A stretch of 51,274 bases of DNA, from NCBI GenBank assembly GCA_903907925.1, contig CAIVQB010000116.1:1-51274 (forward strand). The letters are read 5' to 3'. The DNA comes from an uncultured Verrucomicrobiota bacterium. GTDB taxonomy: Bacteria > Verrucomicrobiota > Verrucomicrobiia > Limisphaerales > UBA9464. The notes under the pieces were generated by a model, which saw nothing but the letters and a program-made list of their open reading frames with translations, did not search any database and was not told where the DNA came from. The translations under genes and the position numbers were made by a program. Of the stretch, positions 1 to 46,530 are shown one piece after another; position 1 is the first letter of the stretch, and each line of letters begins with the position of its first letter.

Positions 1-204
1 AACGTTGTTCCAACGGGCTTCCATAGGGGGCAGTGCCGAGATGCGCCCGAGCCAGCCGCCGTGCGTTGCCCGCCCTTGCGAATGGGACGGCGCGGGAGGA
101 TGCTTCCGATCTCAGTTTCCCAGAGCGGTGGATCGCGGCGAATGAGTTGAATCGTCGCCCCGGAAGCCACCGTCGGAGTTCATGATTCATTGTCGGTAAA
201 TGGA

Positions 205-3200
205 ATGGTTGCCAACGCTTTATCCTGGTTCGTGCGAATCCTGGTCTTCCTTCTGATTCTTGGAGGCTCGGTCCGCGGCGCAACCGTGCCCGCCGGCATT
301 CCCGCGGCGATCGACTTCAACCGCGATATCCGGCCCATTCTCTCGGAGAATTGCTATGCCTGCCACGGACCGGATGAAGGCCGGCGCAAGTCCGGGTTGC
401 GCCTGGACTTGGAATCCGAGGCGTTCAAGGAATTGAAATCGGGCCGTCACGCCTTGATCCCGGGTGATCTCGAACACAGTTCACTGGTCAGCCGCATCGT
501 CACGACCGATGAGGAGGAAGTGATGCCGCCGCCCAAGTCGGGCAAGAAGCTGACAGCGCGCGAGGTTGGGTTGCTGCGCGACTGGATCCGGACCGGCGCC
601 AAATGGAAGCAGCACTGGGCCTATCTTCCACCGGAACGTCCCACTGTTCCCGAGGTTCGCCACAGCCGTTGGGCGCGCAATGAGATCGACCGGTTTGTTG
701 CGGAACGATTGGAACGTTCCGGATTCGAACCAGCACCCGAGGCCGATCGGGCGACGCTGATCCGCCGGGTGAAGTTTGATCTGACCGGATTGCCACCGAC
801 GATCGAAGAGGTGGATCAGTTCCTGTCGGATCGTTCACCGGCGGCCTACGAGCAGCTGGTCGATCGGCTGCTGAAGATGCCGCAGTACGGCGAACGGATG
901 GCCGCCAACTGGCTGGACCTCGCCCGTTATGCCGACACCAGCGGCTACCATTTCGACGGCGTGCGCTTCATGTGGCTGTGGCGCGACTGGGTCATTCAGG
1001 CGTTCAACGAGAACAAGCCCTACGACGCCTTCACGGTGGAACAACTCGCGGGCGATCTTCTTCCCGGCGCGACCCAATCGCAGCGGATTGCCACCGGTTT
1101 TGTCCGCAACAACATGACGAACGACGAGGGCGGCGCCGATCCCGACGAGTACCTCAACAAATACGTCGTCGACCGGGTCAACACTCTCGGATCGGTCTGG
1201 CTCGGTCTCACCGTCGGCTGCACCGAGTGTCACGATCACAAGTATGATCCGATGACCACGAAGGAGTTCTACCGGTTGTACGCGTTCTTCCACAACGTCC
1301 CGGAAAAGGGCCTGGATCGGATTCGCACTGACAATCCGCCGCCGCGCCTGCCGGTGCCGACTCCGGAACAGGCGGTTCAGTTTGTGGAGGCGGATTTCGC
1401 GGTGCGCGACGGCGAGAAGACGCTTCAGGATCGAAACAACGAATTGGGAGAGACCCAGGAAAAATGGGAACGGGAAACCATGGATCGTCCGCCGGCGGCG
1501 CTCGTTCTTCCGCCGGACACGATCTCGGTGGAATTCGAGGATGATCTGGCGCTGCACCACGGAACCAACACCGTGGCAGGCCAGACGAACGGGGCCGCAG
1601 CGTTGACGTTTGAGGCGGGTCGCCCCGGTCGTGCGTTGCATTTCGACGCTGGAACCCGGGTCGAGTGGAACGCGCCGGCCGTCACGGTTTCGACCAACGG
1701 TTTCACCATCGCTGCCTGGGTCAAGCGACGGGGGAACGGCGTCCTGCTGTCGATTGCTGAGTCAGTTTCCGCGACCCGTGGCTTGGAATTGAGCTTCGTC
1801 GACGGCAAGCCGCGCCTGCGCCTCGGCTCTACCAATGAAGCCGATCAATTGCGGATCCGGTCCAAGGATGCGCTTCCGGAAAACCAATGGGTCCATGTGG
1901 CGTTGACCTATGACGGTTCCACCAAGGCGGGTGGTGTTCGGCTGCGGTTCAACGGAAAGGCGCGGGAATTCGAAACGGAAGTGGATCACCTGCAACCGGG
2001 CTTTATCCTCAATGGCGCGCTTTCGGTGGGCGGCGGGTTTGTGGGTGCGATCGACACGCTGCGGGTGCTGGGACGACCGCTCTCGGCCGAGACGCTGACC
2101 CAGCTTGAATTCGAGGGATGGCTTTCGATCGTCTCGCGCTCGCGTGGCAATCGGTCCGAGGAAGATCGCGGCGATCTCTCGCGGGTATATCGCGAGCGGT
2201 ATGCGACGGACTACCTCCGCTCCGAGGCCGCATTGGCGAAGGCGCGGCGAACCAAGGAGGAGTTCTATTCCAAGATCCCCACCTCGCTCATCATGGAGGA
2301 AATGGATCCCCCGCGGGACACTTTTCAGTTCATCCGGGGAGATTTTCGCAACAAGGGTGAGAAGGTGACCGCTGGCACACCGGCATTTCTCCCACCGTTG
2401 CCGGAAGGCCCGGTCAATCGCCTGACCCTCGCCCGATGGTTGATCGCGCCCAATCACCCGTTGACCGCCCGGGTGGCGGTGAATCGTTGGTGGGGAATGT
2501 TCTTCGGCACCGGCCTGGTCAAGACGGCCAATGATTTTGGTTCGCAAGGGGAATGGCCGAGTCATCCCGAGTTGCTGGACTGGCTGGCGATCCGGTTCCG
2601 CGATGGATCGACGGCAACCAACCGTCCGGGCGGGTCGCGGGCGGCGGGTGGTCCGGCCGCGGTCCGACCTTGGGATGTTCGTGAACTGGTGCGCTTGATC
2701 GTGACCTCGGCCACCTATCGTCAATCGGCCGCCGTGACGCCGCAGAAACTGGAGAAGGACCCCTACAACCGCCTGCTCACCCGTGGCCCGCGTCTTCGGC
2801 TCGACGCGGAATTCGTCCGGGACAACGCCCTCGCCGTCTCCGGATTACTGAACCCGAAAATCGGTGGACCGAGCGTGAAACCGTATCAGCCCGATGGGAT
2901 CTGGGATGGAACGGATTCGCGCTACGATCAGGATCACGGGGATCTTCTCTACCGCCGCGGCATGTACGTGTTTTGGCGGCGATCAGCCCATTATCCCTCC
3001 TTCGCCACCTTCGACGCACCGAACCGCGAGGTCTGCACCTTCCTGCGCCAGCGGACCCAGACGCCGCTGCAATCGTTGGTGTTGATGAATGATCCGGTGT
3101 TTGTGGAGGCGGCGCGAGCACTGGCCAACCGGGTGATCCGCGAGGAACCGTCCGATCGCCAGCGTCGACTGGTCCGGGCCTTCCGACACGTGATCGGCCG

Positions 3201-3405
3201 AAGCCCCGCGCCTGCCGAACTGGTGGTGTTGACCTCCACCCTGGATCGCCAGTTGGCGTTGTATGGCAAGGATGCGTCCGCCGCGAAGGCGTTGATCGCG
3301 GTGGGTGAATCGAAGCCGTCCGCCGGAATCGATCCGGTGGAACTGGCGGCCTTCACTGCCGTTGCCAACGTGTTGTTGAACCTCAACGAGACTCTCACCC
3401 ACTGA
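205..3405 (+). CDS. Secreted PSCyt1 / DUF1549 / LamG / DUF1553 cytochrome-like protein
   Basis: This 1066-residue protein has the planctomycete/verrucomicrobial order: signal peptide (hydrophobic stretch RILVFLLILGGSVRG), PSCyt1 haem-binding region with CYACH at about residues 50-54, DUF1549 (roughly 140-370, including a second CxxCH in the family motif CTECHDHKYDP), a concanavalin/LamG-like insert (roughly 440-640) and DUF1553 (roughly 735-1010, with ANDFGSQGEWPSHPELL). The family is known only as a presumed periplasmic or surface c-type cytochrome module, common in polysaccharide and sulfatase loci; its reaction is not established. ATG 205 is preferred because it opens directly on the signal peptide; TTG 190 is an in-frame alternative adding five residues. 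The next gene, a DUF1501 protein 22 bases downstream, is its normal genomic partner, so the two are probably cotranscribed. Confidence 0.93.
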   Translation: MVANALSWFVRILVFLLILGGSVRGATVPAGIPAAIDFNRDIRPILSENCYACHGPDEGRRKSGLRLDLESEAFKELKSGRHALIPGDLEHSSLVSRIVTTDEEEVMPPPKSGKKLTAREVGLLRDWIRTGAKWKQHWAYLPPERPTVPEVRHSRWARNEIDRFVAERLERSGFEPAPEADRATLIRRVKFDLTGLPPTIEEVDQFLSDRSPAAYEQLVDRLLKMPQYGERMAANWLDLARYADTSGYHFDGVRFMWLWRDWVIQAFNENKPYDAFTVEQLAGDLLPGATQSQRIATGFVRNNMTNDEGGADPDEYLNKYVVDRVNTLGSVWLGLTVGCTECHDHKYDPMTTKEFYRLYAFFHNVPEKGLDRIRTDNPPPRLPVPTPEQAVQFVEADFAVRDGEKTLQDRNNELGETQEKWERETMDRPPAALVLPPDTISVEFEDDLALHHGTNTVAGQTNGAAALTFEAGRPGRALHFDAGTRVEWNAPAVTVSTNGFTIAAWVKRRGNGVLLSIAESVSATRGLELSFVDGKPRLRLGSTNEADQLRIRSKDALPENQWVHVALTYDGSTKAGGVRLRFNGKAREFETEVDHLQPGFILNGALSVGGGFVGAIDTLRVLGRPLSAETLTQLEFEGWLSIVSRSRGNRSEEDRGDLSRVYRERYATDYLRSEAALAKARRTKEEFYSKIPTSLIMEEMDPPRDTFQFIRGDFRNKGEKVTAGTPAFLPPLPEGPVNRLTLARWLIAPNHPLTARVAVNRWWGMFFGTGLVKTANDFGSQGEWPSHPELLDWLAIRFRDGSTATNRPGGSRAAGGPAAVRPWDVRELVRLIVTSATYRQSAAVTPQKLEKDPYNRLLTRGPRLRLDAEFVRDNALAVSGLLNPKIGGPSVKPYQPDGIWDGTDSRYDQDHGDLLYRRGMYVFWRRSAHYPSFATFDAPNREVCTFLRQRTQTPLQSLVLMNDPVFVEAARALANRVIREEPSDRQRRLVRAFRHVIGRSPAPAELVVLTSTLDRQLALYGKDASAAKALIAVGESKPSAGIDPVELAAFTAVANVLLNLNETLTH

Positions 3406-3427
3406 GGGTTCGCTTCCACTTCATCCC

Positions 3428-4873
3428 ATGCCATTCCTTCACGATGTCGAGCGGGCGATGACGCGGCGCGCCTTTCTCCGGGGAACCACCGGTGTCGGCG
3501 GACTCGCGCTGGCGTCGCTGTTGGATCCGACGCTGCTCGGTGCCGCCGCGACCGGTCCGGCGTCGGTCCCTGGCGCGCTCAAGGTGTTGCATCATCCCGC
3601 CCGGGCCAAGCGGGTGATCTACCTGTTCCAATCCGGAGCGCCGTCGCATCTCGACCTGTTCGATCCCAAGCCGCTCCTCACCCGGATGACCGGCGAGGAG
3701 TTGCCGCCCAGTGTTCGGAAGGGACAACGCATCACCGGCATGACCGCCGGCCAGCCGGTTCTGCGCTGCGTGGGCCCGGCGTATCCGTTCCGCGCGGTCG
3801 GACGGAACGGGATGGAACTGAGCGAACAACTGCCCCATATCGGCAGTGTTGCGGATGACATCACGCTGATTCGATCGATGCATACCGATCCGATCAACCA
3901 CGATCCGGCGGTCACCTTTTTCGGGACGGGCAATCAGCAACCCGGCCGGCCGACCATGGGCGCGTGGCTCGCCTACGGTCTCGGCAGTGAGAATGCAAAC
4001 CTGCCGTCGTACGTGGTTTTGGTCAGCGGCGGCGGCGGGCAATCGTTGCAGGCCCGTTATTGGGGCAACGGATTTTTGCCCGGCAATTATCAAGGCGTCC
4101 AGATGCGCAGCCAGGGGGATCCGGTGCTGTATGTCTCCAATCCGCCGGGACTGAGCGCTGACTCGCGACGAAGTCTCCTCGACGCCATGCAGGATCTCAA
4201 CCGACGCCAGTTGGGGATCCTGGGAGATCCTGGAATCGCGACCCACATTGAAAACTACGAACTGGCCTTCCGCATGCAGACCAGCGTGCCGGAGCTGATG
4301 GATATTTCGAAGGAACCCAAAGACGTCCTGGAATCGTACGGAGCCGAGCCCGGGCGTTCGTCATTCGCCAACAACTGCCTGCTGGCGCGGCGTCTCGCCG
4401 AGCGCGGAGTGAGGTTCATCCAGTTGTGTCATCGCGACTGGGATCATCACGGTGGCCTGCCGGACGGCATCAAGGCTCAGACGAAAAATACCGACCGCGC
4501 CAGTGGTGCTTTGGTGCGCGATCTCAAGCAGCGGGGGATGCTGGATGAAACCCTGGTGATCTGGGGCGGTGAATTCGGCCGGACGGCGTATTCGCAGGGC
4601 GATATTTCGAAGACCAATTTCGGACGCGACCATCATCCGCGATGCTTCTCGATCTGGGCGGCCGGCGGTGGATTCAAACCGGGCATCGTCCACGGAAAGA
4701 CCGACGATTTCGGCTACAACATCGTGGAGAACCCGGTGAGCGTTCATGACTTCCACGCCACGATGCTGCATTTGCTCGGAGTGGATCACCTGAGAATGAC
4801 CTACCGCTTTGAAGGCCGGGACTACCGCTTGACCGACGTCAGCGGCGAAAAGATCGGCGCGCTCCTCGCGTGA
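3428..4873 (+). CDS. DUF1501 family protein with twin-arginine signal
   Basis: This 481-residue protein carries an N-terminal Tat-type signal (MTRRAFLRGTTGVGGLALA, starting at residue 11) followed by a full-length DUF1501 domain, a member of the alkaline phosphatase-like/sulfatase superfamily. Recognisable family segments are YLFQSGAPSHLDLFDPKP near residue 60, CHRDWDHHGGLP near 337, and LVIWGGEFGRT followed by GRDHHPRCFSIW near 375-405; the His and Asp residues in these are plausible metal ligands. Tat export implies that a folded, possibly cofactor-loaded enzyme acts outside the cytoplasm. The gene lies 22 bases after the DUF1549/DUF1553 gene, the standard pairing in Planctomycetota and Verrucomicrobiota. 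The substrate is unknown. Initiation at the internal ATG 3458 (MTRRAF) is also possible. Confidence 0.93.
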   Translation: MPFLHDVERAMTRRAFLRGTTGVGGLALASLLDPTLLGAAATGPASVPGALKVLHHPARAKRVIYLFQSGAPSHLDLFDPKPLLTRMTGEELPPSVRKGQRITGMTAGQPVLRCVGPAYPFRAVGRNGMELSEQLPHIGSVADDITLIRSMHTDPINHDPAVTFFGTGNQQPGRPTMGAWLAYGLGSENANLPSYVVLVSGGGGQSLQARYWGNGFLPGNYQGVQMRSQGDPVLYVSNPPGLSADSRRSLLDAMQDLNRRQLGILGDPGIATHIENYELAFRMQTSVPELMDISKEPKDVLESYGAEPGRSSFANNCLLARRLAERGVRFIQLCHRDWDHHGGLPDGIKAQTKNTDRASGALVRDLKQRGMLDETLVIWGGEFGRTAYSQGDISKTNFGRDHHPRCFSIWAAGGGFKPGIVHGKTDDFGYNIVENPVSVHDFHATMLHLLGVDHLRMTYRFEGRDYRLTDVSGEKIGALLA

Positions 4874-4975
4874 GCTGAAGGCGCGCAAGGCACTTCGAGT
4901 GATCGAATCTTCGCCGATTTCCGCGGTGTCGTTGAGTCCATGCGAAGCTGGATGACAGGCACGGTTCAGTGACCG

Positions 4976-5044
4976 TGGAGCGCCATCTCACCTCCAGACC
5001 GAATGGAGGCAAGGGCGCCGTCAGGTGGGAGAGGTGGCGCTCCA
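4976..5044. repeat. Imperfect inverted repeat upstream of the sigma-factor gene
   Basis: The ten-base arm TGGAGCGCCA (4976-4985) is matched exactly by its complement TGGCGCTCCA (5035-5044), and pairing continues inward through a T.G wobble and three more pairs (CTC with GAG). The loop is about 40 bases. The gap between the DUF1501 gene (stop 4873) and the sigma gene (start 5164) otherwise shows no coding signal. There is no T-run, so it is not a convincing rho-independent terminator. It may be one copy of a dispersed repeat or a regulatory hairpin. Confidence 0.5.
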
Positions 5045-5163
5045 TTGTGGATCACTCGCATCTCTAGTTGAATTCCAAGGCCCTCTTCAACTGCGTGGTT
5101 CCAGCTTCCTTGTCCCGAAAGGGTCCGGCAGCGGGGACTACCTGATGAAACCGCATCGCTGTT

Positions 5164-8100
5164 ATGGAAGACTGGCAACTGCTCGATACGTACGCCCGGA
5201 CCGGGTCGGAGGCCGCATTCGCTCAATTGGTGGAGCGCCACCTCGGGCTCGTCCACGCGGCCGCCCGGCGTCAGGTGAATGACGATGCCCTTGCGGCGGA
5301 CGTCGCGCAGGCGGTGTTCCTGCTGTTGGCCCGGAAGGCCGGCTCGCTGGGACGCCACGTCGTGCTCTCCGGCTGGCTCTTCCGCACCACCCGGTTCGTG
5401 GCAGCCCGCGCACTGCGGGCTGAGATCCGGCTGAAGCGACGCGAACAGGAAGCCGTCGCCATGCAAGACATCAACGCCCCCGATCCCACCTGGAACCAAC
5501 TCGCCCCCGAACTTGACGAGGCGCTCGCCGGTCTGTCGGAGAGCGATCGAAATGCCCTTCTCCTCCGGTATACCGAGGGAAGAAATCACCGGGAAGTGGG
5601 GAGCGTGTTGGGCATCACCGAGGAAGCGGCGAAAAAGCGGGTGAGTCGGGCCTTGGACAAACTTCGGGTGACCCTTGCGCACCACGGAGTACTGGTTTCC
5701 GCCGGGATACTGGCCGGATTTCTCGCTGATCAATTGAGCGCAGCACCACCCTCCGGCCTCGCGGGTGTCATCACGCAAGGATCGCTGACGGGTGCCGCCC
5801 AGCAGGGAGTCGCGGCCGAACTGGCGAGACAAGTGGCGGTAACATGGCGCTGGACCCGCGTGAAGACGACGGCCTCAGTCGCCGGGGTGATGGCGTTGAT
5901 ACTCATGGTCGGCGGCAGCGTGAAGTGGGGATGGGGATGGAACGGAGGAACCTCCACCCCAGGCGGGACGGCCACGGGTGGTATCGTGGCATCGCCTCGT
6001 GGATCATCTGAACCGAGCCGAACCCGACGCCCGGTGACGGAGGGCGACTCGCTCCGGCTTCAAGTGCTCGCCGCAGACACGGGCGCTCCCCTGCCGGGAG
6101 CCCGGGTTCCGCTGAATTTTGTGGTCGAGGGTCAATGGTTGAGGCCCACCGACATGGAGACGGATGCCCAGGGCGTATGCCTCATTCCTCTTCCACGGAC
6201 CAGCTTGTTCCGGGTCGACGCCGGCGCGCATTTTCCCGGCTATGAGGACCGCTTCCTGACCTGGCGAAAGGACTGGCAGTTCCCACGTCCCGAATCCTAC
6301 ACGCTGCGGCTCGCGCGTGCCGAGACGATCGGCGGCCAGGTGGTGTCTGCCCAGGGTCATCCCGTGCCGGGCGTGGTGGTCTGGCTGAGTTATAAGCTCA
6401 GCGATACCTCATGGCGTGAACCTGAAGAAGATCGCGAACGCGAGGGGTTCATGTGGCCCATCCGTTTGGGATCCACGGACGCGGAGGGACGGTGGGTTTG
6501 CGCCACGATCCCTGCGGGACGGGTCCATTTCGCGATCGAATTCGAGCATCCGGACTATGTACGGGAAACCTCACTGTGGGTGAATCGCGACGACGTCACC
6601 CGGGAAGCGAAATCCGTCCTCGCCCAACTCCATGCGCGGACCAGGGTGACCACTCTGCGCGACGGATTTGTTGCGACTGGCCGAATACTCAATGCCGTGG
6701 GCGAGCCGGTGATCGGGGCGCGCATTGGAACTTCGTGGCGCGAAACCGGTGCGATGTCGGATCGCGAAGGTGGTTTCTCGATGCGTTCACAGCCCCGCGG
6801 TGAGGTGATGTTCACCGCCACGGCGGACGGCTTTGCACCGAAGCGGTTCCAGGTCCAGGCCGGCGGGAATCCAGTGGAGGTACGTCTGGATCCAGGTGGC
6901 GTGCTTCGGGCGCAAATTGTGAATACCACCGGCGAACCCCTCGTCGGGGCGCGACTGGTGCTCGAGGATGGATTTGAGGATGGTGCCCTCGGTTGGGATG
7001 ATCGAACCGATTCCGAGGGCCGGGTGACCTGGCGCAGTGCGCCACCGGGACGACGGTTCGTATTCACCGCAGCGGCCGAGGGCTATCAAACCACACGCTC
7101 CTTTCCGCTGGATGTCGATGGCACGGAGCATCGGATCGTTCTGCAGCCAGCGCTCACCGTGGTGGGTTCGGTGCTGGACGAGGCCAGCGGCCAACCTGTG
7201 GCGCGGTTCAAGGCGATTCCCGGACGCTTCAATGGCGGCGAGGACCTGGACCGCAGCGCGCTGCGCTACGGAGTGGATGGCCAGTATGAATTGTCTTTCG
7301 AAGAATCAGCCACGCCGGTGGTTCGAATCGAAGCTGAAGGATATCAGACCGAGATGGGTCGTCCGATCGCCGGTTCCCACGGAGAGCCGCGCTGTGATTT
7401 CCGTCTTCGGCGCGTCAATGCGAGCAACCGGGTTCGCGGGCGGGTGCTGAATCCCGATGGAACGCCCGCCGCCGGCGCGGAGGTGGTTCTGTGCACGCTC
7501 GATGGCGGGACGATTCTGGGGCAGGGGCGGTTCCTGCGGGACCAAAGCCATTGGATGACCAACGCGGACTCGGCAGGGCGCTTCGAGTTTCCTCTGGTTC
7601 GCGCACCCCACACGGTGGTCGGGGTATCGCCTCGTGGATTCGGACGCGCCAGCACGTTGTCTAACTCCGTGGTCGAAGTGCGTCTCGAAGCGTTCGGTGG
7701 AATTGAAGGTGTCGCCTCCCGCGACGGTCGACCAATGGCGGGCCAAAAGGTGATTCTTTTGGACCCCAGCTGCACCGACTATGCGGGCGCAGTTTCACTC
7801 GAGGTTGCGACATTTGAGCAGCAATGCGACGAGTCGGGACGCTTCCGACTGAATGCGGTCCCGGCCGGCGACTATCAAATGTACGTGTACTCGGGCGTGG
7901 GGCTGCCGTGGACCGACGAGACCCAGGTGAAAGTGATCTCCGGACAGATCGCAACGGTGCACGTGGGTGAACCCGATCCCGCGGGAAGGACGGTCTTGGG
8001 CCAATTGAAGCCTTCCGAACCGCTGTCCGTCCCCAACTGGAGGTCTCTTGTAACCGGCCATCATTTGGGACGGGTGTTGCCAACGGTGACGCCACCCTCC

Positions 8101-8430
8101 GGGTTGAATGAACAGGCGCGACAACTTTGGCTGGTTGCCTGGCACCAGTCAGCGGCCGGCCGCGAGTGGGCACGTCAGAAGGGAACCTTCACGCTCGAAG
8201 TGGATGCCGATGGCGGCTTTGTGGGACGGGGTGTCCCACCCGGCGACTACGAGCTCAACATCACCGCGATCCCCGAGGAGTTTGTGCGGAAGGATCCGTG
8301 GGCTCAACGCGCCGCGACCTGGCAGGGATTTGCCCGAAGGAAAGTCACTGTTCCCGAGAGTCCTTCGGGACAGGACGCGGTGCCGGTCGACTTGGGAACG
8401 GTTGAATTGAAGATCCAGCGACGTCCATGA
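5164..8430 (+). CDS. ECF sigma factor fused to a membrane segment and carboxypeptidase-regulatory-like repeats
   Basis: This 1088-residue fusion begins with a complete ECF-type sigma factor. Region 2 spans about residues 8-95 (core DALAADVAQAVFLLLARKAG) and region 4 about 115-175 (helix-turn-helix with LSESDRNALLLRYTEG and VGITEEAAKKRVSRALDKLR-like spacing). A linker of about 60 residues leads to one strong hydrophobic segment (about 236-252, ASVAGVMALILMVGGSV). Some 830 residues follow, with repeated carboxypeptidase-regulatory/Ig-like units marked by motifs such as GEPVIGARI, GEPLVGARLVL and GTPAAGAEVVL. The predicted topology is a cytoplasmic sigma domain tethered to the inner membrane with an external beta-sandwich stalk. 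No anti-sigma gene is adjacent. Such fusions occur in Verrucomicrobiota and Planctomycetota, but how the sigma part is released or activated is not known. The stop is followed by 143 bases without a clear gene. Confidence 0.9.
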   Translation: MEDWQLLDTYARTGSEAAFAQLVERHLGLVHAAARRQVNDDALAADVAQAVFLLLARKAGSLGRHVVLSGWLFRTTRFVAARALRAEIRLKRREQEAVAMQDINAPDPTWNQLAPELDEALAGLSESDRNALLLRYTEGRNHREVGSVLGITEEAAKKRVSRALDKLRVTLAHHGVLVSAGILAGFLADQLSAAPPSGLAGVITQGSLTGAAQQGVAAELARQVAVTWRWTRVKTTASVAGVMALILMVGGSVKWGWGWNGGTSTPGGTATGGIVASPRGSSEPSRTRRPVTEGDSLRLQVLAADTGAPLPGARVPLNFVVEGQWLRPTDMETDAQGVCLIPLPRTSLFRVDAGAHFPGYEDRFLTWRKDWQFPRPESYTLRLARAETIGGQVVSAQGHPVPGVVVWLSYKLSDTSWREPEEDREREGFMWPIRLGSTDAEGRWVCATIPAGRVHFAIEFEHPDYVRETSLWVNRDDVTREAKSVLAQLHARTRVTTLRDGFVATGRILNAVGEPVIGARIGTSWRETGAMSDREGGFSMRSQPRGEVMFTATADGFAPKRFQVQAGGNPVEVRLDPGGVLRAQIVNTTGEPLVGARLVLEDGFEDGALGWDDRTDSEGRVTWRSAPPGRRFVFTAAAEGYQTTRSFPLDVDGTEHRIVLQPALTVVGSVLDEASGQPVARFKAIPGRFNGGEDLDRSALRYGVDGQYELSFEESATPVVRIEAEGYQTEMGRPIAGSHGEPRCDFRLRRVNASNRVRGRVLNPDGTPAAGAEVVLCTLDGGTILGQGRFLRDQSHWMTNADSAGRFEFPLVRAPHTVVGVSPRGFGRASTLSNSVVEVRLEAFGGIEGVASRDGRPMAGQKVILLDPSCTDYAGAVSLEVATFEQQCDESGRFRLNAVPAGDYQMYVYSGVGLPWTDETQVKVISGQIATVHVGEPDPAGRTVLGQLKPSEPLSVPNWRSLVTGHHLGRVLPTVTPPSGLNEQARQLWLVAWHQSAAGREWARQKGTFTLEVDADGGFVGRGVPPGDYELNITAIPEEFVRKDPWAQRAATWQGFARRKVTVPESPSGQDAVPVDLGTVELKIQRRP

Positions 8431-8573
8431 CAGCCTGGCTGAAAAGCCGGGCGGGATCGGTTCATTCCGTTCAAATTCGTGAACCTGCGTCCGTCTGCGC
8501 CTTCCTTGAAATCGTTCCGGCTCCATTGCGAATGACCCGCACCTCAAATCGCCTTCCAAGGCCCAATTTGATG

Positions 8574-9152
8574 TTATCGTCCCTGGAGAATGCGTTCGAT
8601 CTGCACCCGGTGGATGCCGATGTGTCCGGCGGCCAAGGCGTGCCAGCCGGCGGCATTGAGGGGACCAAACCACGGATGGGTGAATCGGGTCATTGTGTTG
8701 AGTTGCGAAGCGCCATTTACGATCGCGATCAGGGCGTCGCAGGATTGCTCGTAATCGGCAACGACGGCGGATGAGGCGTCGGGGCTGGGTTTGACCGCTG
8801 CGGTACTGGCCCTTCCCGGCGGCCGGTCGCCATGGGTAAGAGCTCCAATCACCCGGGCGATCTCCTGATGCACGATGCGGAGATGATCGAGGGTCATCCA
8901 CACCGACCAATAACGACTGCTGTCTTCGAGCCCGCGTGGACGGCGGATCAGGACTCGGCGGGCTCCCGATTCCTCGCCGCAGGTACGGATGAGGACACGG
9001 ATTGCCTCCCGTTCCCTTTGGAATTGGGCGGTGAACGAATCGCGGTTGCCCCGCCGGAGGCGCATCCCAAAGAGGATTCGGGCGACGAAGAGCTCGATCA
9101 GCGGCAGGCCCGCGCCCGGAGGTGCCAGTTTGGGTTCGGTGGGTGACGACAT
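8574..9152 (-). CDS. DinB-like (DUF1569-type) four-helix protein
   Basis: This protein is about 192 residues from ATG 9152 and resembles the DinB/YfiT superfamily of four-helix bundle proteins, especially the DUF1569-type branch. Supporting segments are MTLDHLRIVHQEIARVIGAL in the middle and a C-terminal HPWFGPLNAAGWHALAAGHI that ends with HRVQIERIL; the spaced His residues could bind a metal, as in the family. Members are thiol-dependent or metal-dependent transferases, or have no known role, so no reaction is assigned. The frame stays open upstream to 9251, but the extra 33 residues look non-coding and would run into the leader of the divergent rhamnose isomerase gene. It is transcribed away from the rhamnose operon, and nothing links it to that pathway. 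Confidence 0.75.
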   Translation of the reverse strand: MSSPTEPKLAPPGAGLPLIELFVARILFGMRLRRGNRDSFTAQFQREREAIRVLIRTCGEESGARRVLIRRPRGLEDSSRYWSVWMTLDHLRIVHQEIARVIGALTHGDRPPGRASTAAVKPSPDASSAVVADYEQSCDALIAIVNGASQLNTMTRFTHPWFGPLNAAGWHALAAGHIGIHRVQIERILQGR

Positions 9153-9337
9153 GAACGATGGGGTTGGTGGGGCGCACGCACGCGCTCCCGATGGTAATGT
9201 ATAGGTCTGCCTCCACTTTTTCAACCTTGGGAGCCGGCTCGTGGAAAACACCCAAAATCATCACCGGATATCGATTCGCCGGTCGGAAAAGATTCTTTGG
9301 GATTGCCGCGAGAGGCTCTCCGGTCCGCAATTCCGGC

Positions 9338-10648
9338 GTGCCCCGCTCCCGTTCCAGCCGTTCCGACGGATCTCCAAAAGACCGCCGTAATCCGACCTTG
9401 CGGCCCGCGGCGGCCGAGCGGGCGGCCCGCGATCGCTATGCCGCCGTCGGTGTGGATGTGGATGCGGCATTGCGCACGCTCGCCGGGATTCGTGTTTCGA
9501 TGCACTGCTGGCAGGGGGACGATGTGGCGGGGTTCGAGCACGGAACCCGCGAACTCGGTGCCGGTCTCGCGGTAACCGGGAACCACCCGGGCCGGGCTCG
9601 GACGGTGGCTGAACTTCGCTCCGATCTCGAAAAGGCGCTGTCCCTGATTCCCGGCCGGCACCGGGTCAATCTTCACGCCATGTATGGAGAGTTCGGTCGC
9701 CGGCCCGTCGACCGGGATCAAATCGAGACGAAACACTTTCAGGGCTGGATCGAATGGGCTCGCGAACAAGGCTTGGGACTCGATTTCAATCCGACCTGTT
9801 TTTCACATCCGCTGGCGGACGACGGCTTCACCCTGGCGCATCCGGATCCTGCGGTCCGCGCCTTCTGGATCGAACATTGCCGCCGGGCCCGGACGATCGG
9901 CGCGGCCATGGGTTCCGCGCTGGGGACCCCGTGCGTCACCAACGTCTGGATTCCGGATGGATTCAAGGACACGCCGGCGGACCGGCAGACTCCGCGGGAA
10001 CGATTGGTGGAATCGCTGGATGCGGTTTTCCGGGAACCGTTTTCCGCCGAACATCTCCGCGACGCGCTGGAGCCCAAATTGTTCGGCATCGGTGCCGAGA
10101 GTTGCACGGTGGCCTCGCATGAATTCTGTCTGGGATACGCTGTCGCCCGGCAGAAACTGCTCTGTCTGGATGCCGGACATTTCCATCCGACGGAATCCAT
10201 CGCCGACAAGATTTCCAGCACCCTGCTCTGGGTGCCCGAACTCCTGCTTCACGTCAGCCGCGGCGTGCGCTGGGACAGCGATCATGTGGTGACGTTGAAC
10301 GACGATCTCCTCGCGATCGCGCACGAGGTGGTTGCCAACGGCGCCCTTCCACGCGTGCATCTGGGCCTCGATTATTTCGACGCCAGCATCAATCGGATCG
10401 CCGCCTGGGTCATCGGCTCGCGCAACCTGATCAAGGCCCTGCTCGTAGCGCTGCTCGAACCGCCGGGAATCCGGGCTGCGGAATGGGCCGGCGACCGGAC
10501 CGCGCGCCTGGCATTGCAGGAGGAGGCTCGGTCGCTGCCGTGGGGTGTGATCTGGGACGGGTATTGTCGGTCGAAGGAGGTTCCTGTCGGTGAGAACTGG
10601 TTGATCGAGGTGCAACGTCATGAGCAACAGGTGCTGGCCCGTCGTTGA
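9338..10648 (+). CDS. rhaA: L-rhamnose isomerase
   Basis: This is a TIM-barrel aldose isomerase that converts L-rhamnose to L-rhamnulose in the cytoplasm. It is collinear with E. coli RhaA from the segment [16 protein letters not shown] onward. Hallmarks are [61 protein letters not shown] and [17 protein letters not shown], which include the acidic and His residues that bind the catalytic metals. The frame is open from 9158, but its first 60 codons have no resemblance to the family. GTG 9338 gives 436 residues and TTG 9398 gives 416, close to the E. coli length of 419, so the exact start is uncertain. It heads a six-gene operon with the sugar importer and the mutarotase. Confidence 0.95.
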
Positions 10649-10672
10649 GATTTCACTGCGTCGATCGTCCGC

Positions 10673-12259
10673 ATGAAACTGAACACGGCTCACTTGATTC
10701 CGGATGCGGGCGTGTCTGGGTCGGTTGCGTCCCGAGCGGAGTCGGTGCTGCGACTGACCGGATTGACCAAGTCGTTCGGGGCGGTCCGGGCGTTGCGCGG
10801 CGTTTCGTTCGATCTCAAGGCGGGTGAAGTGCACGCGCTCCTCGGCGAAAACGGCGCGGGAAAGTCCACCCTGATCAAGGTGATTGCCGGCGCGCACGCG
10901 CCCGATGCTGGCACGCTTGAGGTGTTCGGACATCCCGTCGATCGCCTCGATCCAGCCACGGCGCATCGCCTGGGCATCGCCTGCATCTATCAGCAACCGG
11001 CGCTGTTTCCCGATCTCACGGTTGCGGAAAACATCGGACTGCGGCTCGAGCCGGCGACGGCAGTGCGGTGGATCGATCCGGTTCAACAGAAGAGCTGCGC
11101 GGTGGAATGGCTCCGCCGGATCGGCGCCGAGATTTCCCCGGACAGCGAGGTCCGGGAATTGTCGATGCCCGAGCAACAATTGGTCGAGATCGCCTGCGCG
11201 CTCGGTGCCGGCGCGCGGATTGTGATCATGGATGAACCCACCTCTTCGCTCACCCAGCGCGAAGTCGAGCGGTTGTTCGCCGTTGTGCGCGACCTGCGAC
11301 GACAAGGGGTGGGAATCATCTACATCTCGCACCGGCTGGAGGAGATCTTTGCTCTCGCGGATCGGGTGACCGTGCTGCGGGACGGTGAATCGGTGGGAAC
11401 CTTTCCAGTCCGCGATTCGAGGAATCAACCGGCGCTCACTGAAGCCGAATTGATCCGATGGATGGTCGGTCGCGAAGTGTCCCAGCTCTATCCACCGGCG
11501 ACGGGCGCTCCCGGCGACATCGTGTTGTCGGTGAGCGGACTGGGATGCGCCGCCGCTGGCGTCCATTCCGTCGATCTTCAGGTTCGGTCCGGTGAAATCC
11601 TGGGCCTGGCCGGCTTGGTGGGCGCCGGTCGCACCGAATTGGCGCGCGTGCTGTTCGGGCTGACCCCCGCCGATTCGGGTGAGATCCGATGGCGCGGCCG
11701 GGTCGTGCGGATTCGCTCTCCGCGGGAGGCGATCGCGCAGGGTATCGCCTATGTTCCGGAGGATCGTCGTCGTCATGGTGTGATCCTGGAAATGCCGGTG
11801 GCCCACAATCTGACGCTGGCGGTGCATCGAACGTTGTTTCCCGGCGGATGGCTCCTGCCGAAGGCGGAAGGCGTGTTGGCCGGCGAATGGATCGGCCGCC
11901 TGGGAATCAAGACCGATGGACCGCAGGCACCGGTCGGATCCCTTTCCGGCGGAAATCAGCAGAAGGTGGCGCTGGGCCGTTGGCTGGTGACGAAGCCGGG
12001 ATTGCTCATCCTGGATGAACCGACTCAGGGCGTGGATGTCGGTGCCAAGGGCGAGATTCACCAGATCATTCGGGGACTGGCGGCGGACGGGCTGGCAGTG
12101 GTGTTGATTTCCAGCGATCTGCCGGAAGTCCTCGGGATGAGCGATCGCATTGCCGTGATGCGCGGGGGCACGGTGGTCACGGTGTTGCCGGGCGGCAGCA
12201 CAGCGTCGGCGGTGATGGCGGCGGCTTTGGGACAACCGCCGGACGGGACCGGCGTATGA
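10673..12259 (+). CDS. rhaT: Rhamnose-type sugar ABC importer, ATP-binding protein (double ATPase)
   Basis: This 528-residue protein has two tandem ABC ATPase domains, as in RbsA, MglA and rhizobial RhaT. The first has Walker A GENGAGKS at residues 58-65, the signature-like ELSMPEQQLVEIA and Walker B IVIMDEPTSS. The second has the degenerate Walker A typical of the family (GLVGAGRTEL), a canonical signature LSGGNQQKVALGRWL and Walker B LLILDEPTQGVDVGAKGE. It energises carbohydrate uptake with the two permeases that follow. It starts 24 bases after rhaA, and its stop overlaps the first permease start by four bases (ATGA), indicating translational coupling. Family membership is certain; rhamnose specificity is inferred from the flanking isomerase and mutarotase. 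Confidence 0.93.
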   Translation: MKLNTAHLIPDAGVSGSVASRAESVLRLTGLTKSFGAVRALRGVSFDLKAGEVHALLGENGAGKSTLIKVIAGAHAPDAGTLEVFGHPVDRLDPATAHRLGIACIYQQPALFPDLTVAENIGLRLEPATAVRWIDPVQQKSCAVEWLRRIGAEISPDSEVRELSMPEQQLVEIACALGAGARIVIMDEPTSSLTQREVERLFAVVRDLRRQGVGIIYISHRLEEIFALADRVTVLRDGESVGTFPVRDSRNQPALTEAELIRWMVGREVSQLYPPATGAPGDIVLSVSGLGCAAAGVHSVDLQVRSGEILGLAGLVGAGRTELARVLFGLTPADSGEIRWRGRVVRIRSPREAIAQGIAYVPEDRRRHGVILEMPVAHNLTLAVHRTLFPGGWLLPKAEGVLAGEWIGRLGIKTDGPQAPVGSLSGGNQQKVALGRWLVTKPGLLILDEPTQGVDVGAKGEIHQIIRGLAADGLAVVLISSDLPEVLGMSDRIAVMRGGTVVTVLPGGSTASAVMAAALGQPPDGTGV

Positions 12260-13182
12260 AGCGGTACCGTCGTGAACTCTCGGTGACTGCCTGCCTGTCG
12301 GCATTGCTGCTGGTGCTGGCCGTGGTCGCCCCCGCGTTCTTTGGACGGCAACAGTTGCTGACCACGCTGACGGCTGCCGCACCGGTTCTGGTGGCGGCGT
12401 GTGGAATGACCCTGGTGATCCTCACCCGGCAGATCGATATTTCCATCGGATCACAGTTTGCGCTCTGCAGCGTGGCGGCAGGGCTGATGGCCAAGGCGGG
12501 GTTGCCCATGCCGCTGGTGGTGCTGGGGGCGGTGGCCGGTGGAGCCGCGCTCGGTGCGTTCAACGGGTGGCTCGTCGCCGGTCTGGAGTTGCCCAGCATT
12601 GTGGTGACTCTGGCGACCTTCGTGACCTGGCGCGAAACGCTACGATGGTCGAGGGAGGGCGAATTCGTGAAAGATCTCGCGGACGGATTCCAATGGTGGG
12701 GACTGGGCCAGGGCAGGGGGCAGGCGGTAATCCTGATGGGTGCCCTGGGCGTGTTTCTGATCGGCGTGATCTTCCTCAAAAAGGTGGGTGCGGGACGGTT
12801 TTTCTATGCGGTGGGCTCGGATCGTGAAGCGGCCCGGCTGGCGGGAATCCGACCGGCCGCGGTCACGTTCGGGGCCTTCGTGATCCTCGGGGCGTTGGTG
12901 GGTGTGGCTGCGGTGTTGAACGCTGTCCGGTTTGCCGATGTGGATCCAAAGACCGGGACCGGTCTGGAAATGCAGGTGATCGCCGCGGTGGTCGTCGGGG
13001 GAGTGGCGATTTCCGGAGGACGCGGAACGCTCTGGGGTGTTCTGGTAGGTGTTCTCCTGCTGGCCTGCATCGCGCCGGCATTGGTCTTTCTCAAGCTGCC
13101 GCCACAATGGGAAAAGGCGATTCAAGGCGCGATTATTCTGCTGGCCGTGGCGGCGGACGGTGAAAAAGGAAAGTCCTCGTGA
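12256..13182 (+). CDS. rhaP: Sugar ABC importer permease 1 (RbsC/RhaP family)
   Basis: This 308-residue polytopic membrane protein of the BPD_transp_2 family has about eight to ten hydrophobic segments, with the conserved core GMTLVILTRQIDISIGS near residues 51-67 and EMQVIAAVVVGGVAISGGRGTLWG near 236-260. These motifs are shared by RbsC and by RhaP/RhaQ and contribute to the coupling interface and translocation path. It forms the channel with the next permease. Its start overlaps the ATPase stop and its stop overlaps the next start, each by four bases, so the transporter subunits should be made in fixed ratio. The rhamnose assignment rests on operon context. Confidence 0.9.
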   Translation: MKRYRRELSVTACLSALLLVLAVVAPAFFGRQQLLTTLTAAAPVLVAACGMTLVILTRQIDISIGSQFALCSVAAGLMAKAGLPMPLVVLGAVAGGAALGAFNGWLVAGLELPSIVVTLATFVTWRETLRWSREGEFVKDLADGFQWWGLGQGRGQAVILMGALGVFLIGVIFLKKVGAGRFFYAVGSDREAARLAGIRPAAVTFGAFVILGALVGVAAVLNAVRFADVDPKTGTGLEMQVIAAVVVGGVAISGGRGTLWGVLVGVLLLACIAPALVFLKLPPQWEKAIQGAIILLAVAADGEKGKSS

Positions 13183-14219
13183 ATCCACCGGCATTGCAAA
13201 TCCGTACCGGCTCACGATCGCGGCCATGGCTGAGATCGGAGCTGCTCCTGCTGGGAGTTCTCATCGTGGAATCGCTGGTGTTCGCCCGAACCGGAACCCA
13301 TTTTGCCACGGTCGGAAATGCGCTCGAAATCCTGCGGCTCTCGGTGGAAATCGGCCTTTTGGCAGTGGTGATGACCCCGGTGATTCTGACCGGAGGTATT
13401 GATCTTTCGGTGGGTTCGCTCCTCGGATTGTGCGCGGTGTGTTTCGGAAAACTGTGGCGCGATGGAGGGTTGGCGTGGCCTGTCGCGGCGCTGGCCACGT
13501 TGGGCATCGGTGGAATGGCCGGTGGCCTCAACGCGGTGCTCATCACCCGGCTGCGATTGCCGCCGTTGATCGTAACCTTGGGCAGCCTATCACTCTTTCG
13601 TGGACTGGCCGAGGCGATCACCCGTGGCGTGGATAATTTCACCGGTTTCCCTCCGTCATTTCTGATGTGGGGGCAGGGCTATTTTGGCGGAGTGATCCCG
13701 GCTCAGGCGCCGCTGGGGATCGCCGTGATGATCGGCGTGGGGTTGCTGGTGCATGCGACTTCGTTGGGACGATCTTTGCGGGCGATCGGTTTTTCCCCGG
13801 AGGGCGCGCGTTACGCGGGCGTGCCGGTAGGCCGCCAAATCACCGTGGTCTATTTGTTGTCGGGCGTGGCGGCTGCCTTGGCGGCGTTGGTGTACGTGGC
13901 GCGGGTGGGTCAGGCCAAGGCGGATGCCGGCACCGGCTATGAACTGCTGGCCATCACTGCGGTGGTTCTCGGAGGTACGAGCATTTTCGGTGGCACCGGT
14001 TCGGTTTTTGGAACGGTGCTGGGGGTGGCGACGCTGGCGGTGCTGCGCAACGGACTTCAACTTTCGGATCAACCGGGAGAACTCGCCGGGATTCTCACCG
14101 GGGTGTTTCTGTTGACTGTGTTGGCCGGTGAGATGGCGTTCAAGAAATACTCGGCGCGCCGGGTCGCCTCCGGCATGCTCCAAACCTCCACTGCGAGTTC
14201 CAAACCGGCTTCATCATGA
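13179..14219 (+). CDS. rhaQ: Sugar ABC importer permease 2 (RbsC/RhaQ family)
   Basis: This 346-residue polytopic inner-membrane protein is homologous to the preceding permease. It has the characteristic VVMTPVILTGGIDLSVGSLL segment near residues 63-82, a central LPPLIVTLGSLSLFRGLAEA and the late motif YELLAITAVVLGGTSIFGG. The start codon is GTG at 13179, overlapping the previous stop as GTGA. Two distinct permeases, rather than one used as a homodimer, is the arrangement known for the rhizobial rhamnose importer RhaSTPQ, which supports the naming. The C-terminal tail after the last helix is Ser/Ala rich and probably cytoplasmic. Confidence 0.9.
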   Translation: MNPPALQIRTGSRSRPWLRSELLLLGVLIVESLVFARTGTHFATVGNALEILRLSVEIGLLAVVMTPVILTGGIDLSVGSLLGLCAVCFGKLWRDGGLAWPVAALATLGIGGMAGGLNAVLITRLRLPPLIVTLGSLSLFRGLAEAITRGVDNFTGFPPSFLMWGQGYFGGVIPAQAPLGIAVMIGVGLLVHATSLGRSLRAIGFSPEGARYAGVPVGRQITVVYLLSGVAAALAALVYVARVGQAKADAGTGYELLAITAVVLGGTSIFGGTGSVFGTVLGVATLAVLRNGLQLSDQPGELAGILTGVFLLTVLAGEMAFKKYSARRVASGMLQTSTASSKPASS

Positions 14220-15247
14220 AACGTCTTCTCACCTTTCTCACCGTTGTCGCGGCGATCGTTGTCTCCGGATGCAAACCGTCGGCCCCCGATTCTGGCGCCC
14301 CTTCCGGCGCAGCAAGCACCGCGGGTGGATCGGCCGCGAAACCGTTGACCATCGCGTTTCTTCCCAAGAGCAAAGGGAATGCGTACTTCATCGCCGCGCG
14401 CCAGGGAGCCGAACAGGCGGCGAAGGAACTCGGAGTGAAGTTGCTGTACGACGGCCCCACCGAACCGGATCCGGCCAAACAGAACGAGATCGTGGAGACG
14501 TGGATCACCCGCGGCGTCGATGTCATCGCTGCGGCCTGCGAGAATCGCGAGGGCATCTCAACCGCGCTGCGAAAAGCCCAGGCCCACGGGATCAAGGTGG
14601 TGACCTTCGACGCCGACGCCCTTCCCGATGCGCGGAGCTTCTTCGTGAACCAGGCGACCCCCGAGGGCATCGGCAACGCCTTGATGGACGAGGCGGCCCG
14701 GCTGCTGGGCGGAACGGGCGAGTACGCGATCATCACGGCCAGCCTGACTGCCGGAAACATGATCGAATGGCAGAAGGCGATCGAGAAACGGAACGCGGAG
14801 AAGTATCCGGGAATGAAGCGGATGGCGCTGCGGCCCTGCGATGATCTCAAGGACAAGGCGTTTGCCGAGGCGACCGCGATTCTGAACGCAAATCCCAATG
14901 TCCGGTTGCTGATGAACATCTGCTCGCCCGCCGTCCCGGGTGCGGCGGAGGCGGTGAAGCAGGCGGGCCGGGCCGGACAGGTCAAGGTGATCGGCCTTGG
15001 ATTGCCGAATGAGAACAAGCGTTACGTGAAGGAAGGTGTCACCGACACTGTGATTCTCTGGCGCGTGGTGGATCTCGGACGGTTGACCGTTCACGCCGCC
15101 GCCGCGGTCGCCCGGGGCGAGCTCAAGCCGGGCGCGACGGAATTCTCCGCCGGAGCCCTTGGCACCTTCAAGGTGATCGGTGACAACGTGCTTCTCGGTG
15201 AACCGTTCAAGTTTACCAAGGACAACATTGATCAGTTCGATTTCTGA
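14216..15247 (+). CDS. rhaS: Sugar-binding lipoprotein of the rhamnose ABC importer
   Basis: This 343-residue periplasmic binding protein of the type 1 (RbsB/AraF-like) fold has a lipoprotein signal with lipobox VVSGC and Cys19 as the lipidation site, followed by a Ser/Ala/Gly linker. The mature domain opens with a typical first strand and ligand loop (FLPKSKGNAYFIAARQGAEQ) and contains TWITRGVDVIAAACENREGI and VVTFDADALPDARSFFVNQA. It would capture the sugar outside the inner membrane and hand it to the two permeases. The start overlaps the previous stop by four bases. The symbol follows the rhizobial RhaSTPQ convention and is unrelated to the E. coli transcription factor also called RhaS. 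Confidence 0.92.
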   Translation: MKRLLTFLTVVAAIVVSGCKPSAPDSGAPSGAASTAGGSAAKPLTIAFLPKSKGNAYFIAARQGAEQAAKELGVKLLYDGPTEPDPAKQNEIVETWITRGVDVIAAACENREGISTALRKAQAHGIKVVTFDADALPDARSFFVNQATPEGIGNALMDEAARLLGGTGEYAIITASLTAGNMIEWQKAIEKRNAEKYPGMKRMALRPCDDLKDKAFAEATAILNANPNVRLLMNICSPAVPGAAEAVKQAGRAGQVKVIGLGLPNENKRYVKEGVTDTVILWRVVDLGRLTVHAAAAVARGELKPGATEFSAGALGTFKVIGDNVLLGEPFKFTKDNIDQFDF

Positions 15248-15298
15248 ATCGGGACGTGGATCGGGAGATCGGAAGTGCGCTCATCCGGGGGTTTCAAC

Positions 15299-15616
15299 AT
15301 GATCCGAAAAGCGTTTGTCATGACGGTGAATCCGGGATGCGAGGCGGAGTACACCCGGCGCCATCAACCCATCTGGCCCGAACTCGAAACCGTTCTTCGC
15401 GAGCATGGGGTTCAATCGTACTCGATCTTCCTGTTACCGGAGACCCGCCAGTTGTTTGCCTGCGTGGAATTCCGGGATGAAGCGGAGTGGAACGCCATCG
15501 CGCAGACCGATGTGTGCCGGCGCTGGTGGCGGCGGATGCAGGACGTGATGCCGTCCCACGCGGATGGCCGGCCGGTGGCGGTGGATTTGGAGGAGGTGTT
15601 TCGTTTGGGAGGTTAA
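15299..15616 (+). CDS. rhaM: L-rhamnose mutarotase
   Basis: This 105-residue dimeric alpha-beta barrel-type protein interconverts the alpha and beta anomers of L-rhamnopyranose, supplying the isomerase with its preferred anomer. It matches E. coli RhaM (104 residues) along its length: MIRKAFVMTVNPG at the start, RRHQPIWPELETVLREHG, TDVCRRWWRRMQDVMP and a C-terminal LEEVFRLGG. The conserved His in RRHQPIW and the paired Trp residues are family active-site positions. ATG 15299 is chosen because it aligns with the family; an upstream ATG at 15275 would add eight unsupported residues. It closes the rhamnose operon 51 bases after the binding protein. In rhizobia the equivalent gene is called rhaU. 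Confidence 0.95.
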   Translation: MIRKAFVMTVNPGCEAEYTRRHQPIWPELETVLREHGVQSYSIFLLPETRQLFACVEFRDEAEWNAIAQTDVCRRWWRRMQDVMPSHADGRPVAVDLEEVFRLGG

Positions 15617-15617
15617 A

Positions 15618-15660
15618 CGGTTGAAAAGATGAAGAGATGCAGGGTTGAAGAGGCGGTGAG
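15618..15660. repeat. Polypurine GGTTGAAGAG-type repeat, left of rsmD
   Basis: Immediately after the rhaM stop lies a purine-rich stretch built from TTGAAAAGATGAAGAGATG and GGTTGAAGAGG units. A similar tract sits at the 3' end of rsmD (16353-16385) and another at 37077-37118. The rest of the gap to rsmD (to 15765) shows no gene; an A+T-rich stretch just before the rsmD start may hold its promoter. Confidence 0.55.
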
Positions 15661-15765
15661 GCGGCGTCATTGCGACTTTCGCGGGTGGTGCGGCTGTGGT
15701 GGAGTTGTCCTCGCGGTTTTAACGAATGCCGCCGGGCTTGGGCCTGTGTCGAGTGATTTAAGACT

Positions 15766-25179: not shown

Positions 25180-25327
25180 AGCAAAAGGCTAGCGAGATGC
25201 ATGCCGGAAACAAGGATGCGACGGGGGTGGGAGAAGGTCGTTTTCCAACCTCACGGATCCAGTTTTGCCGACCGAGACCGCCCGCAAAACCGTGTTCCCC
25301 GTCGACGTTTCATGATTGTCTTGGCCC

Positions 25328-26341: not shown

Positions 26342-26428
26342 TCGCTCGCCCGACGCAATCTTTCGCGCCATTGCCTCTGGCTCGCTTGACCTTTCCCGTC
26401 CGTCGGCTTACTTCCCGGACCGCCAACC

Positions 26429-29048: not shown

Positions 29049-29191
29049 GCCCGCTCGGGTTGAGTGGGTTGTGTGGTTGCCCCTCCATTGTTCACTCGCT
29101 TTCCCGTCCTCCCGTTTTCCTGCTGTCCCCCCCCAGTTCACCACCCCACCCCGGGGCTTGCCCTCGTGCCGGCTTCGGCCACCATGGGGGC

Positions 29192-31543: not shown

Positions 31544-31550
31544 CCGGCCC

Positions 31551-31810: not shown

Positions 31811-31903
31811 GGTCGCCCGGATCGCAGGGGGCACGAAGGATTGGACTCTCTCCGCGGTTTTCCACTTCCAGACGGATTGAGGTGACGGCACCGTCGGCCG
31901 GTG

Positions 31904-46413: not shown

Positions 46414-46530
46414 GGGCGTAGGATGACGTGGCGGCGGCCGGCTGGGAAGCCCAAGCTGCGGGTTCTGATGCTGGTAGCGCGCGGATTCTGGAACTTTTGT
46501 CCCGTTCCGGTTATCCATCGTGGAACGGTC

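Follow-up and report, generated by a model that had tools for sequence, protein, structure and literature searches.

Fusions of an extracytoplasmic function (ECF) sigma factor to a membrane segment are already known, and here we describe a gene of this general kind from an uncultured Verrucomicrobiota bacterium. It lies at positions 5164-8430 of a 51,274-nucleotide stretch of DNA (contig CAIVQB010000116.1 of assembly GCA_903907925.1), the whole of which is called the window below. The accessible parts of two papers (PMC8999054, PMC5826349) describe ECF52 (SCO4117 of Streptomyces) and the actinobacterial ECF53 and ECF48 as proteins in which, as here, an ECF sigma factor, a transmembrane (TM) segment and an external domain form one chain. 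Release by proteolysis has been proposed for ECF48, ECF52 and ECF53, and self-activation of its own gene has been reported for SCO4117 (same sources). ECF52 and ECF53 have, however, a zinc-finger anti-sigma-like domain between sigma part and TM segment, and their tail and lineage differ from those of the protein described here. IutY of Pseudomonas putida (ECF243) also unites sigma factor and membrane anchor in one chain and is, in the available portion of PMC8999054, the only such fused case in which release has been shown by experiment (Prc, RseP), but its C-terminal part is a fused anti-sigma factor of iron-siderophore surface signalling.

The WD40-bearing ECFs of Planctomycetes, ECF57 among them, resemble the family described below in having C-terminal extensions and in having expanded within one lineage, and some planctomycete ECFs were recovered only in detergent fractions, according to excerpts of PMC8999054 and PMC8567305; their tails carry WD40 repeats. 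SigW/RsiW and sigma-E/RseA share with our protein the recognition-helix contact positions and membrane-based control of an ECF, whereas their anti-sigma factor is a separate protein. Most ECFs with regulatory extensions are still without experimental work, as far as the accessible text of PMC8999054 and PMC8103513 goes.

In the fusion gene of the window, and in a large family of relatives from a poorly studied lineage, a sigma factor, an anchor and a probable sensor lie in one chain, and no adjacent anti-sigma gene was found. Covariation between protein and promoter suggests that selection acts on the sigma domains of this family to recognize the promoters in front of their own genes. The gene and its parts are as follows.

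5164-8430, plus strand: fusion gene, ATG start, 1088 amino acids, with full-length orthologs
5227-5424, plus strand: sigma region 2 (Sigma70_r2), residues 22-87 (Pfam, 5.2e-9)
5521-5667, plus strand: sigma region 4 (Sigma70_r4), residues 120-168 (Pfam, 3.7e-12; relatives in the Protein Data Bank, PDB)
5632-5637, plus strand: recognition-helix residues K157 and K158, which covary with -35 bases; SigW counterparts K170/T171 (PMC6713349, accessible part)
5677-5865, plus strand: linker, predicted to be cytoplasmic, residues 172-234, with the motif RG...AAPxGL (alignment, conservation)
5866-5922, plus strand: predicted TM segment, residues 235-253 (hydrophobicity, insertion energy)
6052-8427, plus strand: C-terminal carboxypeptidase-regulatory/transthyretin-like repeats, residues 297-1088, about eight units by eye (Pfam)

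The initial annotation, made from the letters alone, had placed the frame correctly at 5164-8430 and had recognized in it a complete ECF sigma factor, a membrane segment and a long repeat region; these elements are borne out, with one adjustment. Pfam matches regions 2 and 4 and lists no other sigma region, which is the composition of an ECF (group IV) sigma factor, and the NCBIfam model for sigma70-ECF, TIGR02937, scores 74.2 bits against a cut-off of 42.9. TIGR02989, a Rhodopirellula/Verrucomicrobium sigma family, reaches 38.7 bits, below its curated cut-off of 124.55, and the remaining NCBIfam families among the best 25 of 76 matches of the fusion protein stay under their own cut-offs. Binding of the sigma part to core polymerase is only implied, by the family match. 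The adjustment concerns the hydrophobic segment, previously described as single and placed at residues 236-252: one strong segment exists, better placed at 235-253 (Kyte-Doolittle mean 1.78), and with a weaker stretch at about 169-194 (mean 1.65) the word 'single' is true for strong segments only.

About 830 of the 1088 residues lie beyond the TM segment and are mostly carboxypeptidase-regulatory-like repeats, with CarboxypepD_reg in six stretches (4.6e-43) and fn3_3 at residues 881-931. A PDB sequence search with this C-terminal part gave zero matches at 0.001, and single-sequence structure prediction for residues 1-265 gave a pLDDT of 46.3 and a pTM of 0.27. The frame is not a chance open reading frame (ORF), because five full-length orthologs exist and non-synonymous change against them is well under synonymous change in the sigma part (ratio 0.14-0.28) and in the C-terminal part (0.19-0.32). 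The ratio is 0.26-1.0 in the short TM part; for the linker, some of the estimates are saturated.

Judged by its sequence, the protein differs from the described systems in that neither a zinc-type anti-sigma domain nor a FecR or WD40 domain is found in it. The Pfam scan found no anti-sigma domain within it, no zf-HC2 or similar match at E values up to 1, no FecR-type match and no WD40 match, and residues 172-234 contain zero cysteines. The sole Pfam match related to a carbohydrate-binding module of the ECF52 type is the fn3_3 domain of polysaccharide lyases. A literature search over titles and the beginnings of abstracts returned no description of a sigma family with carboxypeptidase-regulatory tails, and the family may bear a group number in the main ECF reclassification, in the planctomycete surveys or in papers on ECF specificity.

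The same fusion, for which a search in related genomes had been proposed in the initial annotation, was found in full length in five of them, at 59, 58, 57, 49 and 44% identity. With a profile of 38 members, the family is present in at least 78 of the 146 genomes sampled from the order (1e-40) and in at least 12 of the 115 sampled from the phylum (1e-30), the own genome being counted in both. This genome has 11 members, including the fusion gene, which have the sigma part and linker in common with a TM segment behind; a profile search also gives 11. In a collection of genome contigs (genome_contigs), the whole protein as query gave one weak sigma match at 25% identity.

Two sets of family genes were compared. 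The first (n = 53) comprises those members of the fetched loci whose frame and N-terminus are complete, each counted once; the loci are those of the own genome plus the best search matches, which biases the set toward relatives of the 5164-8430 protein. The second (n = 100) comprises 80 further matches from the same search, some others being passed over, and 20 of the 25 phylum-profile matches outside the own genome, the five weakest being omitted. It shares its lineage, and for the most part its genomes, with the first and is therefore unseen rather than independent, and its proteins were cut at 262 residues, by which a few TM segments may have been clipped.

Across the 153 members, the linker is kept regardless of the tail, and in alignments it is better kept than the TM sequence: G175 is present in 146, P196 in 147 and L199 in 128. 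Tail length past residue 260 varies from 15 to 870 residues across the first set, and among 52 tails scanned with Pfam, CarboxypepD_reg occurs in 25, HEAT_2 in two and DUF3738 in one. In a tree built from the sigma part, eight changes of the label 'window-type tail' are needed, at least two of them forced by well supported branches; one locus scored as having another kind of tail (L032) may simply be shortened. These changes of label on the tree indicate that exchange or loss of tails has happened repeatedly, and the family is best described, on the alignments, as a constant sigma-linker-TM part joined to a variable tail.

Several members are unusual in other respects. At one locus (L058, G000:C70:62550-71119), three family sigma genes are adjacent, of which one is on the plus strand and the others are on the minus strand; two of the three have the repeat tail and the third has a different one. 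A relative from the phylum (G069:C120:11735-12541) has the family sigma region within a 2319-residue open frame. In L005, L007, L010 and similar members, the tail includes a coiled-coil-like stretch, and its end resembles prepilin-like proteins (by eye only).

A candidate promoter with two elements lies just upstream of the fusion gene.

5110-5117, plus strand: -35 element TTGTCCCG of the fusion gene's own promoter (conserved in orthologs; clade-specific match)
5131-5139, plus strand: -10 element GCGGGGACT of this promoter (two-block model, clade scan)

The layout is TTGTCCCG-N13-GCGGGGACT, and the site is the top clade-specific match on both strands of the window (22.7 bits, the next scoring 16.0) under a model built partly from the site itself. 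Upstream of the six orthologs, a block resembling TTGTCCCG and another resembling GGGGATT recur at a constant distance from the ATG. From 53 upstream regions, a two-block model was obtained that reads TGTC(C/G)G-N-TTT, 8-10 bases, GCGGG-N-ATT. When the genes were split at random four times, 24, 21, 25 and 19 of the 27 held-out genes scored above the 95th centile of shuffles. All 100 genes of the second set entered the motif test, and 90 exceeded the 95% threshold and 82 the 99% threshold. The distance from site to start codon is 33-56 nt in all of these 90 and mostly 36-57 nt in the first set, with one gene at 81. Within the first set, 51 of 53 genes pass at a score of 8 (used for the association tests) and 52 of 53 at a threshold of 5.0 (used for the combined count); the one without a site is L101, a match with an in-frame TGA that was kept unaltered. 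The motif is thus present upstream of 142 of the 153 family genes.

A strict clade pattern has two sites in the own genome, one before the fusion gene and one before another family gene. Over six genomes, the strict pattern gave 16 sites against 4 for a reversed-pattern control and a second pattern gave 22 against 7, with six of the 16 and six of the 22 preceding family genes. A third pattern gave zero sites; it demands -10 bases that are not in the own site (GGGGACT) and is hence uninformative. Sites at L130 and L135, alike in two genomes and at the right distance from the ATG, were rejected since they lie inside conserved coding sequence.

The -35 bases vary together with the recognition helix. 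Among the genes with a site, K158 occurs with C at -35 base 4 and M158 or V158 with a base other than C in 142 of 142. The second set was fetched after this rule had been seen and, counted on its 90 genes above threshold, shows C in all 52 genes with K158 and another base in all 38 with M/V158. On the tree, residue 158 and base 4 each change 11 times, and eight of eight independent pairs are concordant (p 0.0078); the first set alone offers too few pairs (four of four, p 0.125). At the neighbouring position the fit is close but imperfect: all 27 genes with K157 have C at base 6, as do six other genes (median p 0.0625), and of the 49 genes with Q157, 36 have G at base 5 (median p 0.125).

In the first set, the strongest associations between residues and bases involve residues 75 (-10 base 7), 158 (-35 base 4), 157 (-35 bases 5 and 6) and 82 (-10 bases 5 and 6). 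With control columns included, the top ten cells are all in the promoter core, and nine belong to one or other DNA-contact helix (4.9% of cells); the top twenty include 14 in the promoter core, 12 in the DNA-contact helices and 6 in control columns. In 60 trials with promoters re-paired at random, the maximum z was 7.1; the observed values are 10.2, 9.8 and 7.3.

The fusion protein aligns over residues 12-171 with residues 13-184 of SigW in 5wuq and over 121-171 with 11-61 of 6jhe (ungapped by length), so that residues 157, 158 and 162 fall on SigW K170, T171 and R175. These SigW residues, like R171, S172 and R176 of Escherichia coli sigma-E, touch -35 bases, according to the accessible part of PMC6713349. 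If the near-invariant G of TGTC is taken as G-35, a mapping of our own, residue 157 covaries with -31, the base touched by its SigW counterpart, and residue 158 with -33, one off the -34 of its counterpart. The initial annotation had named missing DNA-binding residues as a possible refutation of its sigma factor; the contact residues are there and covary with the gene's own promoter. Because they align with base-contacting residues of SigW, direct recognition of the own promoter is the natural interpretation, and the covariation argues for positive self-regulation. We are highly confident that this is a functional sigma factor with its own promoter.

The commonest -35 sites for each pair of residues 157 and 158 are TGTCGG for QK, TGTCCG for RK, TGTCCC for KK, TGTTAC for KM, TGTGCG or TGTTCG for RM and TGTCCA for HK. 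The result is a readable -35 code in which two residues predict promoters, and the family could yield sigma-promoter pairs of distinct specificity. The 11 members in the own genome fall into six classes, namely KK (the fusion gene), KM, RM (two), RK, HK and QK (five), and cross-talk within the QK class is likely since five members carry the same pair. This sharing, together with the common core of the motif, would suit an explanation in which the motif serves one regulator shared by the family instead of each gene's own sigma factor. A single outside regulator would not, however, produce -35 bases that track each gene's own helix residues in every one of the 142 genes, and we find this explanation scarcely credible.

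The membrane topology was assessed with insertion energies from an approximate, home-made calculation. The TM estimate is 2 or lower in 52 of the 53 proteins of the first set and in 91 of the 100 of the second, while the best window of the sigma part reaches this limit in none of either. Median estimates over the 53 are -0.43 for the TM segment, 2.85 for the linker and 5.74 for the best sigma window. Net charge in the first set is higher before the TM segment than after it in 35 of 53 proteins, equal in 8 and lower in 10, which argues for an N-in/C-out orientation, the second set giving a weak signal. The matches listed include eight rows of sigma-less relatives of the repeat region (27-30% identity), which have the same repeat type and appear to be secreted proteins of the same order; in all seven frames read (L052-L057), a signal-peptide-like (Sec-type) start was recognized by eye in place of the sigma part, which supports an external tail. 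A single span with the N-terminus inside and the C-terminus outside is very probable, and the combination of sigma factor, anchor and probably external domain in one chain, as first proposed, is supported.

Taken as a whole, we give roughly an even chance to the explanation that this is a one-polypeptide signalling sigma factor. The conserved linker of about 60 residues and a single membrane helix would tether a cytoplasmic N-terminal ECF sigma factor to external repeats, which would sense or bind something in the envelope. The resting, anchored form would be restrained, and an outside signal would lead to release of the sigma part. Once active, the sigma factor would use the two recognition-helix residues to recognize the promoter that closely precedes its start codon, and would so regulate itself positively. 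One protein may then combine sensor, anchor and self-amplifying switch.

Several points weigh against this explanation. The sequence reveals neither cleavage nor an inactive resting state. No site above threshold was found in 11 of the 153 genes, and the strict pattern scans of six genomes gave no convincing targets outside family genes. The covariation tree was made with FastTree with columns 157 and 158 left in, and the association of residue 75 with its -10 base is weaker in the second set (T with A in 32 of 38, A with G in 7 of 18). The charge bias is weak in the second set, where net charge before the TM segment is higher than after it in 52 of 100 proteins, equal in 21 and lower in 27. 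Finally, the linker is moderately hydrophobic, with 13 of the 53 estimates at or below a looser limit, and is a possible second span.

If the linker did insert, the C-terminal part would be cytoplasmic and would read an internal signal, an arrangement with which the HEAT repeats on two tails would agree. None of the 53 linker estimates is at or below zero, however, the charge between linker and TM segment is mostly net positive, unlike that of an outside loop, and the sigma-less relatives of the tail look secreted. We disfavour two spans as very improbable.

Proteolytic release, which the initial annotation had proposed as intramembrane cleavage, is the likeliest route of activation, at a probability that we place a little short of even. 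Cleavage would most likely occur in or near the membrane helix by an RseP-type pathway; the genome encodes an RseP-type protease (207.8 bits, cut-off 147.55), an enzyme so widespread that 14 of 14 control genomes have it. The chief rival is initiation from the tethered state, on the lines of ToxR and CadC, in which the sigma factor is never released: a signal would alter the linker or the oligomeric state, and polymerase would load on the membrane-bound sigma factor and leave it at promoter escape. The sigma-linker-TM part is kept family-wide while tails vary in length, two members being nearly tail-less, and anchoring itself therefore seems to matter. The TM sequence is also poorly conserved between orthologs, so that no cleavage-site sequence is visible. 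Against this, IutY, the studied related fused ECF, is released by proteolysis, as stated in the accessible part of PMC8999054, and we consider tethered initiation unlikely.

Control by a partner or kinase would mean that phosphorylation, or else another protein, switches the sigma factor on or off, the tail being mainly a scaffold. Kinase genes do lie near three of the five orthologs: protein (Ser/Thr-type) kinase genes in genomes G020 and G010, and a histidine kinase gene in G014. At the loci, these are a protein kinase with WD40 repeats (L048:5047-8151), a protein kinase (L050:11335-13638) and a CHASE/PAS histidine kinase (L047:3539-6760). Kinase-regulated ECFs have also been proposed for planctomycete groups (PMC8999054, in part). 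The only neighbour common to the window and the five ortholog loci, however, is a weak match of DAGK type, which in the window lies about 37 kb from the sigma gene, and no kinase is among the 20 window proteins scanned; we rate such control as improbable.

The earlier observation that no anti-sigma gene is nearby stands: none is found among the 20 window proteins scanned (10 flanking, 190-16374, and 10 further, 17191-47079), nor among 10 proteins, the larger ones, encoded next to the five orthologs. Elsewhere in the genome there are one zf-HC2 gene above the cut-off and one below it, so a distant anti-sigma factor is possible. Tentatively, and with more doubt than confidence, we propose that the lineage as a whole uses one-gene sigma switches in which a fixed sigma-linker-anchor unit is combined with swappable external domains and a two-residue -35 code by which each gene drives its own promoter. 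The conserved AAPxGL linker would be a built-in restraint replacing the anti-sigma factor, and anchoring would be the off state. With this family, the restraint of a sigma factor by its own body becomes a directly testable question. The family-wide promoter, the conserved linker motif and the exchange of C-terminal parts are new beyond the initial annotation.

Just upstream of the sigma gene, at 190-4873, the window encodes a PSCyt1/DUF1549/DUF1553 protein with a laminin-G-like domain and then a DUF1501 protein. DUF1549/DUF1501 genes are typical of the superphylum and, together with an FtsZ match below its cut-off and the weak sigma match among genome contigs, point to Verrucomicrobiota. Downstream, at 9158-15616, is a rhamnose-use cluster consisting of L-rhamnose isomerase, an ABC transporter ATPase, two permeases, a periplasmic binding protein and rhamnose mutarotase. 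Synteny of the sigma gene with the DUF1549/DUF1501 or rhamnose genes was considered and rejected, as it was not seen at the five ortholog loci. Long frames without a Pfam match at 0.001 lie at 25310-26371 (minus strand), 26811-28133 (plus), 29138-31624 (minus), 31901-33100 (plus) and 46039-47079 (minus). A frame of 1756 residues at 19909-25179 (minus strand) combines a subtilase with purple-acid-phosphatase N-terminal/fn3-like domains.

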